This document shows positions 18,058-22,369 of a DNA stretch of 64,000 nucleotides, piece by piece. Source of the DNA: Streptomyces antibioticus (lineage in GTDB: Bacteria > Actinomycetota > Actinomycetes > Streptomycetales > Streptomycetaceae); contig NZ_KQ948422.1 in NCBI RefSeq assembly GCF_001514065.1, positions 1,302,001 through 1,366,000 on the forward strand, read 5' to 3'. The notes under the pieces are model-generated. The model did no database searches and was not told where the DNA came from. It saw only the letters and a list, made by a program, of their open reading frames with translations. Both the position numbers and the translations under genes were made by a program. Each line of letters opens with the position of its first letter. The stretch's first letter is position 1.

Positions 18058-19020
18058 TCAGGGCGCCACGGTCGCCGCGAGGCGGGCCACCGCGGTCGGG
18101 TCCGGGAGCGTCGCCAGGGTGTCGATGACCCTTTCGCTCGCGAACTCGCGTTGTTCCGGGGTCACTTCGGGGTCGATGGCGCACTCGGCCTGCACGTACA
18201 CGAAGTTCAGGTCCGTGGCGAAGAGCATCGAGAAGGAGTCGAGGCCCGTGATCCGGGCGGGGCCTCCGGCGTCCGCGTAGGCGCCGGTGAGACGTCGGGC
18301 GGCGTCTGCGGAGAAGTCGTTGCCGCCTGCCCAGACATGGAGCGCGCGGGCGAGTTCGCGTTCGGCCGAGATGACGCCGGCGTTGTCCCAGTCGATGAGG
18401 GTGGGGCCGTCGGGGCCGACCAGGACGTTCGGGGGCTGCATGTCGAGGTGGGAGGTCACCAGGCCGACGGTGCCGGACGGCGTGACGTGCCGCGCCAGTT
18501 CCGGCATCCGGGTGTCGAGGAACCGGCTCAGGTCGTCCGACCACTCCACGCCCGCCCGGCGTACCTCCTTCAACAGGCGGGCCCAGTCGGCCTCCTGAGG
18601 ACACTCCTCGTACCAGGCGTCCGGCGTCTCCGTGGCCCCCTCGCCGGCCCGGTGCAGGAGGGCCAGCGTCCGCCCGCACCAGCTGAGCATCTCCGGGTCG
18701 GTGGGGTCGGCCGGGCTGCCGCCGACCCAGTCGTACACCTTGACGTGGGAACCGTCGAGTCGCGTGACGTGCGAGCCGTCGCGGTTGGGCAGGAGCCGGG
18801 GCGCGGAGATCCCCAGTTCCCCGGCGGCGTCCCGCAGTGCGGCCTCGCGCCGTACCTGACCCTCGTCGCAGCCGAAGAGCAGTTCCTTCACGGCCCAGGT
18901 GGTGCCGCGGCCCGACAGCTTCCAGATCTGCCCCAGCGCGCCACGGGCGACAGGAGTCATGGTCCACGGCCCGCCGCCGAGTCCGTAGTGGTCGGCGATG
19001 GCGTCGGCTGCTCGCTGCAC
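18058..19020 (-). CDS. Aminoglycoside-phosphotransferase-family kinase
   Basis: The 320-residue protein has the protein-kinase-like APH fold. WAVKELLFG supplies the ATP-binding lysine, SHLDMQPPNVLVG is Brenner's catalytic loop (HxDxxxxN), and LIDWDNAGV provides the metal-binding Asp. The substrate could be a sugar, a small metabolite or an antibiotic; the sequence does not say. The GTG at 19020 is preceded by GGAGAGGA at six bases. It is the last gene of an apparent minus-strand run (acetyltransferase, unknown protein, APH) led by a small leader ORF. Confidence 0.88.
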   Translation of the reverse strand: MQRAADAIADHYGLGGGPWTMTPVARGALGQIWKLSGRGTTWAVKELLFGCDEGQVRREAALRDAAGELGISAPRLLPNRDGSHVTRLDGSHVKVYDWVGGSPADPTDPEMLSWCGRTLALLHRAGEGATETPDAWYEECPQEADWARLLKEVRRAGVEWSDDLSRFLDTRMPELARHVTPSGTVGLVTSHLDMQPPNVLVGPDGPTLIDWDNAGVISAERELARALHVWAGGNDFSADAARRLTGAYADAGGPARITGLDSFSMLFATDLNFVYVQAECAIDPEVTPEQREFASERVIDTLATLPDPTAVARLAATVAP

Positions 19021-19069: not shown

Positions 19070-19396
19070 CTAGTCGTCGAACGGTTTGTCGCTCCACCGG
19101 AACCAGGCCCGGTCCTCCTCGATGTGCAGCAGGAACTCGGGGACCGGGCCGTCCGGCGAGACCAGCGACACCCGCCGCCGGATCTCGTCGTGGACCCGCT
19201 CCCACTCCTCCCAGTGACCGTCGTCGTCCCGTTCGGCCAGGGCGAGTTCCCGCGCGAACAGGTCTCGTACGGCGTCGTAGCCGGGCCCTGCCGTGAACTG
19301 GCCCGACAGCCAGGGGAAGTCGGCTTCGTCGATGAGGATCTCCCCCACCGGATCGTCGCCGCCGCGCACGTGCCAGACCTGGCCGTCGAACCCCAC
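19070..19396 (-). CDS. Conserved hypothetical protein between acetyltransferase and APH genes
   Basis: The 108-residue product is acidic, with Trp/Phe-rich segments (WHVRGGDDPVGEILIDEADFPWL and IEEDRAWFRWSDKPFDD) and no signal or membrane span. I do not recognise a named family, though the composition suggests a small alpha/beta cytosolic protein. GTG start at 19396; gaps to neighbours are 70 and 49 bases, so it is probably within the same transcript as the flanking genes. Confidence 0.7.
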   Translation of the reverse strand: MGFDGQVWHVRGGDDPVGEILIDEADFPWLSGQFTAGPGYDAVRDLFARELALAERDDDGHWEEWERVHDEIRRRVSLVSPDGPVPEFLLHIEEDRAWFRWSDKPFDD

Positions 19397-19466: not shown

Positions 19467-20366
19467 CTACCGCGCGTCCGCCGGGAGATGGAAGTTGACC
19501 CGCTCCCGCGTCACGGGATAGCCGGCCTTGGCGAAGTGCGCGGCCATGGGGAAGTTGCCCTGGTCGGTCGCCGCGACGATGTACTCGGCGCCGTGTTCGA
19601 CGAGGTAATGGGTGCACTCGGTCAGCAGGTCGTAGGCGTAGCCGTGGCCGCGCTGTTCCGGGACGACGCCGATGAAGGCGACGATCGGGGCCTGGTGGTT
19701 GCGCGCGGGGATGTGGATGCCGGCCAGCTCGCCGTCCGGTGTGCGGGCGACCTGCCACCACTCGCGCGGGGAGGGGCACCAGCGGAAGAAGTCCAGTTCC
19801 TCCTGGGCCGCTCGGTCGAGGCCGCCTTCCTCGGCGGCCTTCGCGCTGTGCGCGTCGAGGGTGACGGAGTGGATGCGGCGCAGGGCGTCGAAGAAGACGG
19901 CGTCGTCGGGCTCGGGACCGTAGATAAGCCGGCCGGTGCGCTCGGGCAGACCGCATTCAGGGGTCCAGCGGTAGTGGAAGCGCTCGACGAGGAGTTCGTA
20001 CCCCGCGGCTCGCGCGGCTTCGAAGCGGGCCTCGACCTCGGGACGCAGGGCCGGGTCCTCGCGCCAGCCGGGCGGCAGGCTGAAGTCGATGTCGACGCGC
20101 CAGGGCGCCGTGCGCAGCAGTTCCGCCGCCGCCTCGGTCTCCCCCTCGGCCAGGTCGAGGCGGTCGACGCAGAGGGGCTCGGTGTCGTCGGGGCCGCCCC
20201 ACCAGGCGGCGCGGGCCACGATCCGGCCGTCGCGCAGGGCGATGCGCTGCCAGTCGGGGCGGTGCCGGGTCAGCGGATGCGCGGCGCGCACGCCGAGGGG
20301 GTCGGGAAGCGTGTCGTATTCATGGGCGGTGCTCTCGTCGAGCGCGCGGATGACCAGACCGGTCAT
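19467..20366 (-). CDS. GNAT-family N-acetyltransferase
   Basis: The 299-residue protein begins MTGLVIRALDE and contains two GNAT-like halves. The C-terminal half has the acetyl-CoA loop VVPEQRGHGYAYDLLTECTHYL (Q/RxxGxG/A) and NFPMAAHFAKAGYPVT. It should transfer an acetyl group to an amine of a small molecule or antibiotic. GGAGGAA is placed two bases before the ATG region and can be paired with the sequence directly after the upstream leader ORF. Two further genes follow downstream. The longer frame to 20702 lacks a credible start. Confidence 0.9.
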   Translation of the reverse strand: MTGLVIRALDESTAHEYDTLPDPLGVRAAHPLTRHRPDWQRIALRDGRIVARAAWWGGPDDTEPLCVDRLDLAEGETEAAAELLRTAPWRVDIDFSLPPGWREDPALRPEVEARFEAARAAGYELLVERFHYRWTPECGLPERTGRLIYGPEPDDAVFFDALRRIHSVTLDAHSAKAAEEGGLDRAAQEELDFFRWCPSPREWWQVARTPDGELAGIHIPARNHQAPIVAFIGVVPEQRGHGYAYDLLTECTHYLVEHGAEYIVAATDQGNFPMAAHFAKAGYPVTRERVNFHLPADAR

Positions 20367-20368
20367 GG

Positions 20369-20409
20369 GTTCCTCCGGGATACGGGCTGCGTGCAGCGCT
20401 CCCGGGAAC
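20369..20409 (-). promoter_or_regulatory. Hairpin able to mask the acetyltransferase ribosome-binding site
   Basis: On the minus strand GTTCCCGGG (20409-20401) begins directly after the stop of the leader ORF. It can pair with CCCGGAGGAAC (20379-20369), giving nine base pairs with a two-base bulge and a 21-base loop. The right arm contains the GGAGGA that precedes the acetyltransferase ATG at 20366. A ribosome at the leader stop would cover the left arm and release the site. The pairing is seen; the switching is inference. Confidence 0.6.
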
Positions 20410-20466
20410 TCAGACGTGCACGCCCGGGGCAACGGGAAGGGAGCGCTGGATGTCGGTGAACTGCAT
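20410..20466 (-). CDS. 18-residue leader peptide ORF upstream of the acetyltransferase operon
   Basis: The ORF encodes MQFTDIQRSLPVAPGVHV and has an excellent ribosome-binding site, AAGGAGG (20481-20475), eight bases before the ATG. It ends one base before a hairpin that can sequester the downstream acetyltransferase site, and 43 bases before its ATG. This is the layout of a translational attenuator such as those before erm and cat genes. The peptide is not the RRHVD type seen before sulfur genes. No database comparison was possible, so its conservation is unknown. Confidence 0.65.
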   Translation of the reverse strand: MQFTDIQRSLPVAPGVHV

Positions 20467-20643
20467 GGCACTCGCCTCCTTCCGTCGGTCCTGGGGCGTG
20501 ACGGGGACACGCTAGAAGATCCAGTGGGGCCGGCGCCAGCGGTTTTCCGGGCCGCTCGCCGTGCGCCGGGATTGCCGCTCGTGTTCAAGGGCGAGCGGGG
20601 CACTCGGTGACGGTCGGAGCAGCCCAGGCCCGGGAGGGACACC

Positions 20644-21192
20644 ATGAACGTGCCGACACGGAAGTCCGTCGACGGTCCGGCGCGGCACAGGATGCTGGAC
20701 ATCTACCTCAACGACCATCTGGCCGGCGCCACGAGCGGTACGGCGCTCGCCCGCCGCATGGCCCAGGAGCACCACGCGTCGGCGTACGGCAGCGACCTGG
20801 ACAAACTGGCGAAGGAGATCGCCCAGGACCGCCGGGCGCTCGCCGGGCTGCTGAGGGACCTCGATGTTCCCGTGCGGCGCTACAAGCGGGGCCTCGCCTG
20901 GCTGGCGGAGCGGATCGGGCGGTTGAAGCCCAACGGCCGGCTGCTGCGCCGCTCGGGACTCGCCGTGCTGGTCGAGCTGGAGGCGCTGCGGCTGGGCGTG
21001 CAGGGCAAGGCGTCGCTGTGGCGCGCGCTGCTGCCGGTGTCGGCGCTGGAGCCACGCCTGGACGCCGATCGGCTCGAAGAGCTGCTGCGGAGGGCGGAGC
21101 AGCAGATCCGGACCCTGGACTCCCTGCACGCCAGGGCGGTCGTCCAGGTGTTCCGGCTCCATCCCCGGCCCACGGAGCACGCGGCATCCTGA
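20644..21192 (+). CDS. Conserved helical hypothetical protein
   Basis: The 182-residue protein is almost entirely helical and highly charged, with recognisable stretches YGSDLDKLAKEIAQDRRALAGLL, VRRYKRGLAWLAERIGRLKP and ARAVVQVFRLHPRPTE. No signal peptide or membrane span. I recall Streptomyces homologues without a function. It is divergent from the acetyltransferase operon. GGGAGGGAC just before the ATG is a good ribosome-binding site. Confidence 0.75.
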   Translation: MNVPTRKSVDGPARHRMLDIYLNDHLAGATSGTALARRMAQEHHASAYGSDLDKLAKEIAQDRRALAGLLRDLDVPVRRYKRGLAWLAERIGRLKPNGRLLRRSGLAVLVELEALRLGVQGKASLWRALLPVSALEPRLDADRLEELLRRAEQQIRTLDSLHARAVVQVFRLHPRPTEHAAS

Positions 21193-21292: not shown

Positions 21293-22369
21293 GTGGGCAA
21301 GGAACGGGAGGCGGAGCAAGGGGGTTGGTTGCGCGGGGCGCCGCCGCCCGGGTGGGTGCGGGTGCTGCCGGTCGCGTTGCTGGCGGGGGTGTGCGCGGCG
21401 ACCCTGGCGAGCCCCGAGCCGTTGGACATCGGCTTTCTGCTGGGCGCGATCCCCCCGCTGGCCGTGCTGTCGTACGGCCCCGCGGCGACGGCGGTCCTCG
21501 GCGGCCTCGTCGTGGCCGTCCTGGTCGCCCCGGCGTTCCGGCTCGACGACCCCGGCAACACCGACCTGCTCACCGTGGGCTTCGTCGCGGCACTGAGCGT
21601 GGTCGTGTCCTTCGTCCGCAGCCACCGTGACGCCCAGCTGGTCACCGAGCGGGCGGTGGCCGAGGCGGCGCAGCGGGCGGTCGTGCCGCCGTTGCCCGCG
21701 CGGGTGGGGTCCGTGGGGTGTGCGGGGCTGTACCGGGCGGCGCAGCGCGGCACACTCGTCGGCGGCGACTTCTTCGACGTACGGCGGGGGCCGCACGGTG
21801 TGCGGGCGGTCATGGGAGACGTCCAGGGGCACGGGCTGGCGGCCGTCGCCACCGTCGCCTCGCTGCTGGGCGCGTTCCGGGAGGCGGTGCTGGACGAGCC
21901 GGACCCGGAGTCGGTGGCGGCGCGCCTGGACCGCCGGCTGGTGGTGGACTCGGCGGACGTGCCGCACGCCGAGCTGTTCGCGACCGCCGTACTGCTGGAC
22001 TTCGCCGCCGACGCCCGGTCCGTACGGATCGTGGTGTGCGGGCATCCGGCACCCGTGCTGCTGCGCGAGGGGCGGGCCGTCGAGCTGGAGGTGACGGCGG
22101 GCGTGCCGCTGGGGCTGGGGCTGGGCGGCGCCGGGTCTCCGGCCGGGCTCACCCTGCCGCTGCTGAGCGGTGACCGGCTCTTCCTGGCGTCCGACGGGGT
22201 GACCGAGGCCAGGAACGCGGGCGGGGCGTTCTATCCGCTCACCGAGCGGCTCACCGGCTTCCTGGACCTGGAGCCGGCGGTCCTGGTGGAGCGCGTGTGG
22301 CGGGACCTGATCGGCCACTGCGGAACCGCCGTCGACGACGTGACGATGCTCGTCCTCAGCCCTGCATGA
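21293..22369 (+). CDS. Membrane-anchored PP2C/SpoIIE-type serine phosphatase
   Basis: The 358-residue protein has three to four hydrophobic segments in residues 20-110 and a cytosolic PP2C domain at about 135-355. The domain contains GDFFDVRR (metal-binding Asp), [14 protein letters not shown] and [12 protein letters not shown], which match the D, GD, G and D motifs of SpoIIE-like phosphatases. They usually dephosphorylate anti-anti-sigma factors in partner-switching cascades. No such factor is encoded in the window. GTG start at 21293; the end overlaps the convergent MMPL gene by 14 bases. Confidence 0.9.

Follow-up and report, generated by a model that had tools for sequence, protein, structure and literature searches.

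The window analysed here is a stretch of 64,000 nucleotides from Streptomyces antibioticus (contig NZ_KQ948422.1, positions 1,302,001 to 1,366,000). On its minus strand a promoter is followed by a leader of about 135 nt and then by the gene of a GNAT acetyltransferase of 299 amino acids (19467-20366; Pfam PF00583, 2.7e-7), which we propose as the regulated gene. Further along the same strand lie a 108-residue protein with a GTG start and no Pfam match (19070-19396) and an APH-type kinase whose start was set by eye (18058-19020; PF01636, 1.5e-16). Structure prediction of the GNAT from 18 sequences gave a mean pLDDT of 90.1, and a sequence search of solved structures gave no match. The divergent neighbours on the plus strand encode a 182-residue protein without a Pfam match (20644-21192) and a SpoIIE-type phosphatase (21293-22369; 4.6e-40).

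An initial annotation of this DNA had described the three minus-strand genes as an operon under attenuator-like control. All three are present, but they often do not travel together. The GNAT was matched in 275 stretches of named genomes, and in the best 80 of these, viewed up to 3 kb downstream, the 108-residue gene followed it in 35 and the kinase gene in only 7. The kinase is part of the finding only in the closest clade, and because it follows the GNAT at so few loci we rejected control of the kinase as the purpose of the system. The GNAT itself had a match at E ≤ 0.001 in 63 of 100 relatives and at E ≤ 1e-60 in 168 of 343 genomes of the genus.

The published WblC consensus consists of GAAAWY, 3 nt, TKGMNN, 16-19 nt and TANNNT (PMC7157823). 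The order GAAAAC-CGC-TGGCGC-18 nt-TAGCGT at 20547-20509 of the minus strand agrees with it at 13 of 13 specified positions: the WblC/WhiB7 box GAAAAC (20542-20547) fits GAAAWY, the -35 element TGGCGC 3 nt past the box (20533-20538) fits TKGMNN, and the -10 element TAGCGT (20509-20514) fits TANNNT after a spacer of permitted length. With most transcription starts 7-8 bp downstream of the -10 element (PMC7157823), transcription would be expected to start at about 20502-20501. At least 12 of the 13 positions agreed in 35 of the 62 non-redundant type I leaders described below, and the shuffled rate was 0.000. The window promoter matches the WblC/WhiB7-type consensus and, on its sequence, is a candidate member of that regulon.

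Behind the promoter lies the short ORF to which the initial annotation had drawn attention. Its 18 codons and TGA occupy 20410-20466 of the minus strand (ATG at 20466-20464, MQFTDIQRSLPVAPGVHV, TGA at 20412-20410), and its Shine-Dalgarno sequence (SD), AGGAGG at 20480-20475, is strong, as had been claimed. The hairpin said to follow directly also held up: it begins one base past the leader stop, its core pairs CCGGGA (20405-20400) with TCCCGG (20380-20375) and is extended by GTTC/GAAC, and its right arm takes in the GNAT SD, GGAGG at 20376-20372, ahead of the GNAT ATG at 20366.

The pairing strands of the leader can be named A to F in their order on the RNA. Strand A (CACGCCC, 20494-20500, minus strand as for all of them) lies near the expected 5' end of the mRNA, and its partner is strand D (GGGCGTG, 20419-20425); the swap test and double changes given below support this pair. 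Strand B (GGAAGGAGGCG, 20473-20483) contains the leader SD and, from pairing and folding, has C as its predicted partner in the resting fold. Strand C (GCGCTCCC, 20439-20446), inside the ORF and 20 nt after its first base, can pair with B or with E. Strand E (CCGGGAGCGC, 20396-20405) starts 4 nt past the leader stop and is the left arm of the hairpin; its first half pairs with strand F (TCCCGG, 20375-20380), which overlaps the GNAT SD, and its last eight bases pair with C, perfectly so in the window leader. C:E and E:F are mutually exclusive because strand E is common to both.

Conservation of the ORF was one of the checks that the initial annotation had proposed, and it came out clearly. By a loose rule 183 of 195 orthologous upstream regions, near-duplicates included, carried an upstream ORF, against 12.5% of shuffled sequences; the strict rule GGAGG-N5..9-[AG]TG gave 178 of 195 against 1.9%. 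Four of the 183 regions were set aside as unclear, the remaining 179 were reduced to 63 by similarity, and one without clear strands (L140) was dropped, leaving 62 type I leaders. Strand C was exact in 60 of these 62, and the 3' half of E was GCGC in 59 although it is unpaired in E:F, values that are favoured by the anchoring of C and E by best match. This GCGC half is the part of E that pairs with C, and the four bases past E vary widely. A few loci (L085, L115/L189, L190 and L195) keep the GNAT, its ribosome-binding site and, by eye, a similar promoter, and have no leader; they count against the reading proposed below and are also natural controls.

The spacing within the leader was also kept. 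The distance from the start of the ORF to C was 20 nt in 45 of the 62 type I leaders; the remaining values were 17, 19, 23, 26, 29, 38, 41, 44 and 50 nt. Ribosomes stalled at start codons in E. coli end at +16 to +18 (PMC12121999), and with such a footprint a ribosome parked at the leader start would sit over B and stop just short of C. In two leaders, L028 and L043, there is no stop before E and the frame continues beyond it.

If the strands pair in the cell, those of one leader should fit each other better than strands taken from different leaders. We compared the duplex energy of each leader's own strands with that of strands exchanged between leaders, using the 62 leaders and 2000 permutations. 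This swap test gave 0/2000 for C:E, 7/2000 for A:D (z -2.99), 39/2000 for B:C and 43/2000 for E:F (z -2.15), and from 484 to 1900 of 2000 for five control pairings. Among the 50 short leaders alone the values were 28 for A:D, 42 for C:E and 7 for E:F of 2000, and B:C was not significant (279/2000). The 12 long leaders, whose C begins 26-50 nt into the ORF, gave no significant value for any of the four when tested alone.

In an alignment of 49 rows (A2), A:D and E:F together had 8 double-changed cells, all of them in A:D, against 2.0 in shuffles (0/500). By eye, L018, L086 and L119 have GACGCC/GGCGTC, and L020 and L146 CACACC/GGTGTG, in place of CACGCC/GGCGTG. The hairpin stem, in which the initial annotation had proposed to look for compensatory changes, was paired in 95.9% of cells in A2 and passed the swap test, but it had no double change there. 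In the alignment of related leaders (A3) seven rows changed a G-C pair of E:F to A-U; as all seven belong to leaders of one gene family, the second GNAT, they may represent a single event. Strands C and E were paired in 99% of cells, and because this helix is nearly invariant it showed no double changes in A2 or A3. One leader outside the tested set, L030, has by eye CGCTTCCG in C and CGGAAGCG in E.

C:E is also the consensus structure that RNAalifold chose unaided. Two mutually exclusive helices, one of them covering the SD of the target gene, are both supported by the swap tests and lie downstream of the start of a short, SD-bearing leader ORF predicted from sequence. By contrast, the folding energy of the single window stretch was unremarkable (z -1.07) and provides no evidence, and the Rfam 15 covariance models gave no match up to E 1 in that stretch and nothing at gathering score in six related loci. 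The attenuator-like control first suggested is well supported: the ORF, its SD, the hairpin and a competing helix are all conserved, and the helices pair better within leaders than between them. The mechanism probably has to be redrawn. Strands A, C and D were absent from that account, and the competing C:E pairing is the decisive part.

To ask where a ribosome would have to stand to alter the fold, we modelled the 45 type I leaders with a spacing of 20 nt while moving the P site along the ORF. Without a ribosome, E:F had a probability of 0.87. C:E reached 0.37 with the ribosome at codon 1 and 0.29 at codon 2, and stayed at or below 0.01 elsewhere among the tested positions and in ribosome-free RNA, although it exceeded 0.5 at codon 1 in only 16 of the 45 leaders. 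The energy needed to open the GNAT ribosome-binding site fell by 2.4 kcal/mol at codon 1 and by 2.0 at codon 2; opening became easier by more than 1 kcal/mol in 32 and 29 of the 45 leaders, respectively, and harder in 3 and 3. At the positions tested between codons 3 and 13 the drop was 0.2-0.4, and at codon 15 it was 0.9. With the ribosome at codon 17, close to the stop, the opening energy again fell, by 2.49 kcal/mol, with 36 of 45 leaders easier by more than 1 and 7 harder. The mean probability that the GNAT SD is unpaired was nearly constant across ribosome positions and as a readout did not discriminate; opening energy and nascent folding did.

The effect was strongest in RNA that is still emerging. 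For nascent RNA ending just past E, C:E was 0.05 when free, 0.95 with a ribosome at codon 1 (above 0.5 in 44 of 45 leaders) and 0.00 with one at codon 5; in the window leader it rose from 0.00 to 0.96 with the ribosome at codon 1. The full-length window RNA behaved differently at equilibrium, where a ribosome at codon 1 left E:F at 0.85 and C:E at 0.03, and the opening energy went from 15.62 to 15.89 kcal/mol, so that the ribosome-binding site was not released. Capture of E by C would therefore need co-transcriptional folding in the window leader.

We propose that the leader is a translational attenuator that senses events at its own start region, with C capturing E when a ribosome is arrested at the start codon, and put the probability of this reading at roughly two in three. 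It builds on the computed parts, their conservation, the competing pairings, the usual spacing, the promoter match and the existence of a leader family; from these we infer leader translation, the arrest, its inducer and the sign of regulation. In the resting fold B:C would hide the leader SD and E:F the GNAT SD. Ribosomes moving on through the leader would cover C, and E:F would stay. A ribosome arrested at codon 1 or 2 would cover B and spare C, which begins at nucleotide 21, and in the emerging RNA C would take E before F is made, leaving the GNAT SD open. Whatever keeps ribosomes at start codons could act as the inducer. With the leader placed behind a WblC-type promoter, transcription and translation would answer the same stress. 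It looks as if the position of the ribosome, rather than the peptide it makes, is the signal.

In the initial annotation the hairpin was opened directly by ribosomes translating the leader. The conserved C and its usual distance of 20 nt speak instead for a ribosome held at the start codon, so direct opening is unlikely to be the chief route. We keep it as a rival, since in the models the opening energy drops with a ribosome at the leader stop as well. In such a scheme ribosomes finishing the leader would stop at or next to E and break E:F, and ribosome loading or reinitiation at the GNAT start would follow, so that translation of the leader alone would switch the gene on. It would account for the gap between the leader stop and E, which is 0-5 nt in 40 of 62 leaders and 0 nt in 26, and for the effect of the codon-17 ribosome, which in the window leader reduces the cost of opening from 15.62 to 11.9 kcal/mol. 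However, it has no need for C, for the 20-nt spacing or for the GCGC half of E, all among the most conserved parts, and it fits poorly with stop-to-E distances of up to 42 nt and with the 2 of 62 leaders whose frame passes E. We regard it as unlikely. Drug stalling of the ErmCL type, with the nascent peptide and a bound drug arresting the ribosome, would find support in the frame of C, which is identical in 61 of the 62 type I leaders and encodes Arg-Ser there in 59, and in the 18 non-redundant leaders with an exact CGGCGTG, which is read in one frame in 15 and in another in 3. But Arg-Ser coincides with strand C, and related leaders read C otherwise (H-G-C-S, W-V-L-P). Past C the reading frame of similar RNA differs from species to species, giving endings such as PACFV, PGVVRQF and SRRGS, and arrest beyond codon 2 would cover C. 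The peptide conservation that the initial annotation had asked about therefore stands for the frame of C and fails for the second half of the ORF. Frame variation past C speaks against a particular arrest peptide, if only mildly when the type I leaders are taken alone. Because the frame after C varies, we rejected peptide-specific stalling as the main mechanism and consider it very improbable; with C and the second half read in differing frames, no conserved arrest peptide of the ErmCL type was found. The NCBIfam leader-peptide models gave nothing at E ≤ 1 for eight peptides of 20-28 residues, the 18-residue window peptide being too short for this search.

Instead of GNAT translation, the switch might control termination within the leader, as in other antibiotic-responsive upstream ORFs, including that of wblC (PMC11550727), and it is known that Rho termination can follow within a gene left untranslated (PMC12121999). 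The sequence after E:F, AGGAACCCATG, has no T run, and F overlaps the SD; Rho could act further downstream. An intrinsic terminator of the wblC or ABC-F type was rejected because the T run, looked for by eye, is lacking, and we give transcription attenuation as a whole as little credence as peptide stalling. Least probable, to the point of being hardly credible, is that the leader acts chiefly on transcript stability or as a 5'-end element, its ORF being incidental. The A:D helix does close the first bases of the expected transcript, but conservation of the SD, start codon, frame and spacing would be left unexplained.

Start-codon arrest as the sensed event gains a wider setting from related leaders upstream of other genes. 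A covariance model built from A2 (R1) had one match below E 1 in the genome of the window, the window leader itself (E 6.1e-23); with the next match at 2.44, no second copy was seen at that level. Its 30 best matches in 61 genomes of the genus lay at window-like GNAT loci, many of which had trained the model. Its weaker matches include related leaders upstream of other genes: of 22 that were opened (L226-L236, L244-L254), 19 went into A3, two (L228, L250) were of GNAT type and one (L233) was unrelated. A second model (R2), built from A3 without the window-type GNAT leaders, recovered the window leader at E 0.03 and matched two further places in its genome (7.1e-10 and 1.4e-7). The genome of the window has two more leaders of the family, before a hydrolase-like gene (L285, G000:C4:650737-650866) and a PrmC-related methyltransferase (L286, G000:C10:262795-262924). 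R2 matched at E ≤ 0.05 in 53 of the 61 genus genomes and, across the class, at E ≤ 0.01 in 27 of 98 genomes and 18 of 62 sampled genera.

The genes behind these leaders are diverse. They include a second GNAT, two groups of hydrolase-like proteins on which Pfam was silent and which were named by eye and from plasmid annotation, a patatin-like protein, translation initiation factor IF-1 (L245, TIGR00008), a PrmC-related methyltransferase (TIGR03704, 429 bits against a cut-off of 249) and a rifampin monooxygenase (L270, NF033145, 830 bits against a cut-off of 800; a fragment in L226 scored 643). Family leaders precede rifampin monooxygenase-like genes at L270, L271 and L322-L324, all but L270 assigned by eye. 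This is so even though rifampin targets RNA polymerase. The IF-1 (infA) leaders L244 and L245 come from two genomes of the window's order and a different family, and L246 looks alike by eye. One related leader matched 44 plasmid records, 9 of which cover at least 80% of it; by record name 33 are from Streptomyces, two each from Embleya, Streptantibioticus and Arthrobacter, and one each from Nonomuraea, Tsukamurella, Nocardia, Nocardioides and Rhodococcus.

Ninety related leaders were listed, of which 85 could be parsed, and start-to-C was 20-22 nt in 80 of these 85, near-duplicates included. In 41 non-redundant rows the swap test gave 0/2000 both for C:E and for E:F, and did not support A:D (1074/2000) or B:C (258/2000). 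Four of five control pairings were unremarkable, and the fifth, A:E, deviated in the opposite direction (1999/2000). In the folding models the 64 related leaders outside the methyltransferase branch showed a small equilibrium gain in C:E at codon 1 (0.02 to 0.11).

The methyltransferase branch stands apart in its start codons. Of 21 leaders found by R2, the codon at the start position was ATT in 15, ATC in 5 and ATA in 1. Leaders found by R2 share its geometry by construction, so we also took methyltransferase loci independently, by protein family (L358-L387). These 30 loci included 29 readable ones (L378 was unreadable); 27 were parsed, with ATT in 23 and ATC in 4 and a start-to-C distance of 20-21 nt, and L359 has by eye an ATT at the same place. 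Although the search pattern allowed ATG, GTG and TTG, no AUG, GUG or UUG start occurred among the 29 readable leaders; in L382 the leader start is absent. Other loci with this PrmC-related gene are L277, L278, L281, L286 and L300-L319, and the gene was matched in 59 of the 61 genus genomes. In the models, C:E in the 21 leaders was 0.58 and 0.64 with a ribosome at codons 1 and 2, against 0.19 without one. A WblC-type promoter was absent from this branch (mean score 7.76 against 7.60 for shuffled sequences). If AUU or AUC is used as the start, these would be unusual conserved non-canonical starts in regulatory ORFs.

Translational attenuators of the erm and cat type combine a leader ORF with mutually exclusive hairpins, one of which hides the SD of the target gene, and ribosomes stall inside the leader at codons defined by the peptide. 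The GNAT leader resembles this architecture in its leader ORF and exclusive hairpins. It differs in that the end of its peptide is poorly conserved, the start spacing is usually kept and the leader SD itself lies in a hairpin. Closest in logic is toiL-topAI of E. coli, where an upstream ORF precedes a sequestered ribosome-binding site and repression is lifted when tetracycline, and probably retapamulin, arrests ribosomes at the start codon; the system senses several drug classes (PMC12121999). There a hairpin between the ORF and the ribosome-binding site is disrupted directly, whereas in the GNAT leader C, lying beyond the footprint, would capture E.

Among actinobacteria, the wblC/whiB7 upstream ORF likewise answers translation stress, and in the same stress pathway, but it is a transcription attenuator with a Rho-independent terminator (PMC11550727), and we saw no terminator in the GNAT leader. 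The are5sc and tiaA upstream ORFs of S. coelicolor are very short, precede resistance genes and stall ribosomes at the start codon with lincosamide, streptogramin A and pleuromutilin drugs (PMC12421871). They differ in their peptides (MLV and MVGDDDISG), in their ABC-F genes and in a predicted terminator/antiterminator, and the available part of PMC12421871 does not describe a C-D-E-F layout. In the cplR leader of C. difficile the SD is expected to be accessible only after stalling on the upstream ORF, a translational attenuation like that proposed here, but an intrinsic terminator is added and the target is a clostridial ABC-F gene (PMC10201436). We did not find the present family described in the literature searched, from which most subscription journals fall outside, in the available part of PMC8632094, whose main text makes no mention of Streptomyces, or in Rfam.

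Our best reading is that these leaders form a new family of translational attenuators that sense start-codon arrest. A wider view is more tentative, and we hold it at somewhat less than even odds: that this is an undescribed, class-wide family of actinobacterial RNA switches that reads ribosomes parked at start codons and selects at the translational level the members of the antibiotic response to be produced (GNATs, rifampin monooxygenase, hydrolase-like proteins, IF-1), while the PrmC-like branch, with AUU or AUC and no WblC promoter, would sense initiation fidelity or the state of IF3. With such a leader the sensed signal would be where the ribosome stands, as distinct from the peptide being made, and a simple search rule, a capture strand about 20 nt past a start codon, would find such switches elsewhere. 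Several of the targets have no known substrate, and the switch hints that they act in response to translation inhibitors. Proteomics of S. coelicolor in 2025 found only a subset of the transcriptional WblC regulon raised as protein under lincosamide-type drugs, and suggested an added translational control whose mechanism was left open (PMC12421871). The leader family is a concrete candidate for this missing translational layer of the WblC response.
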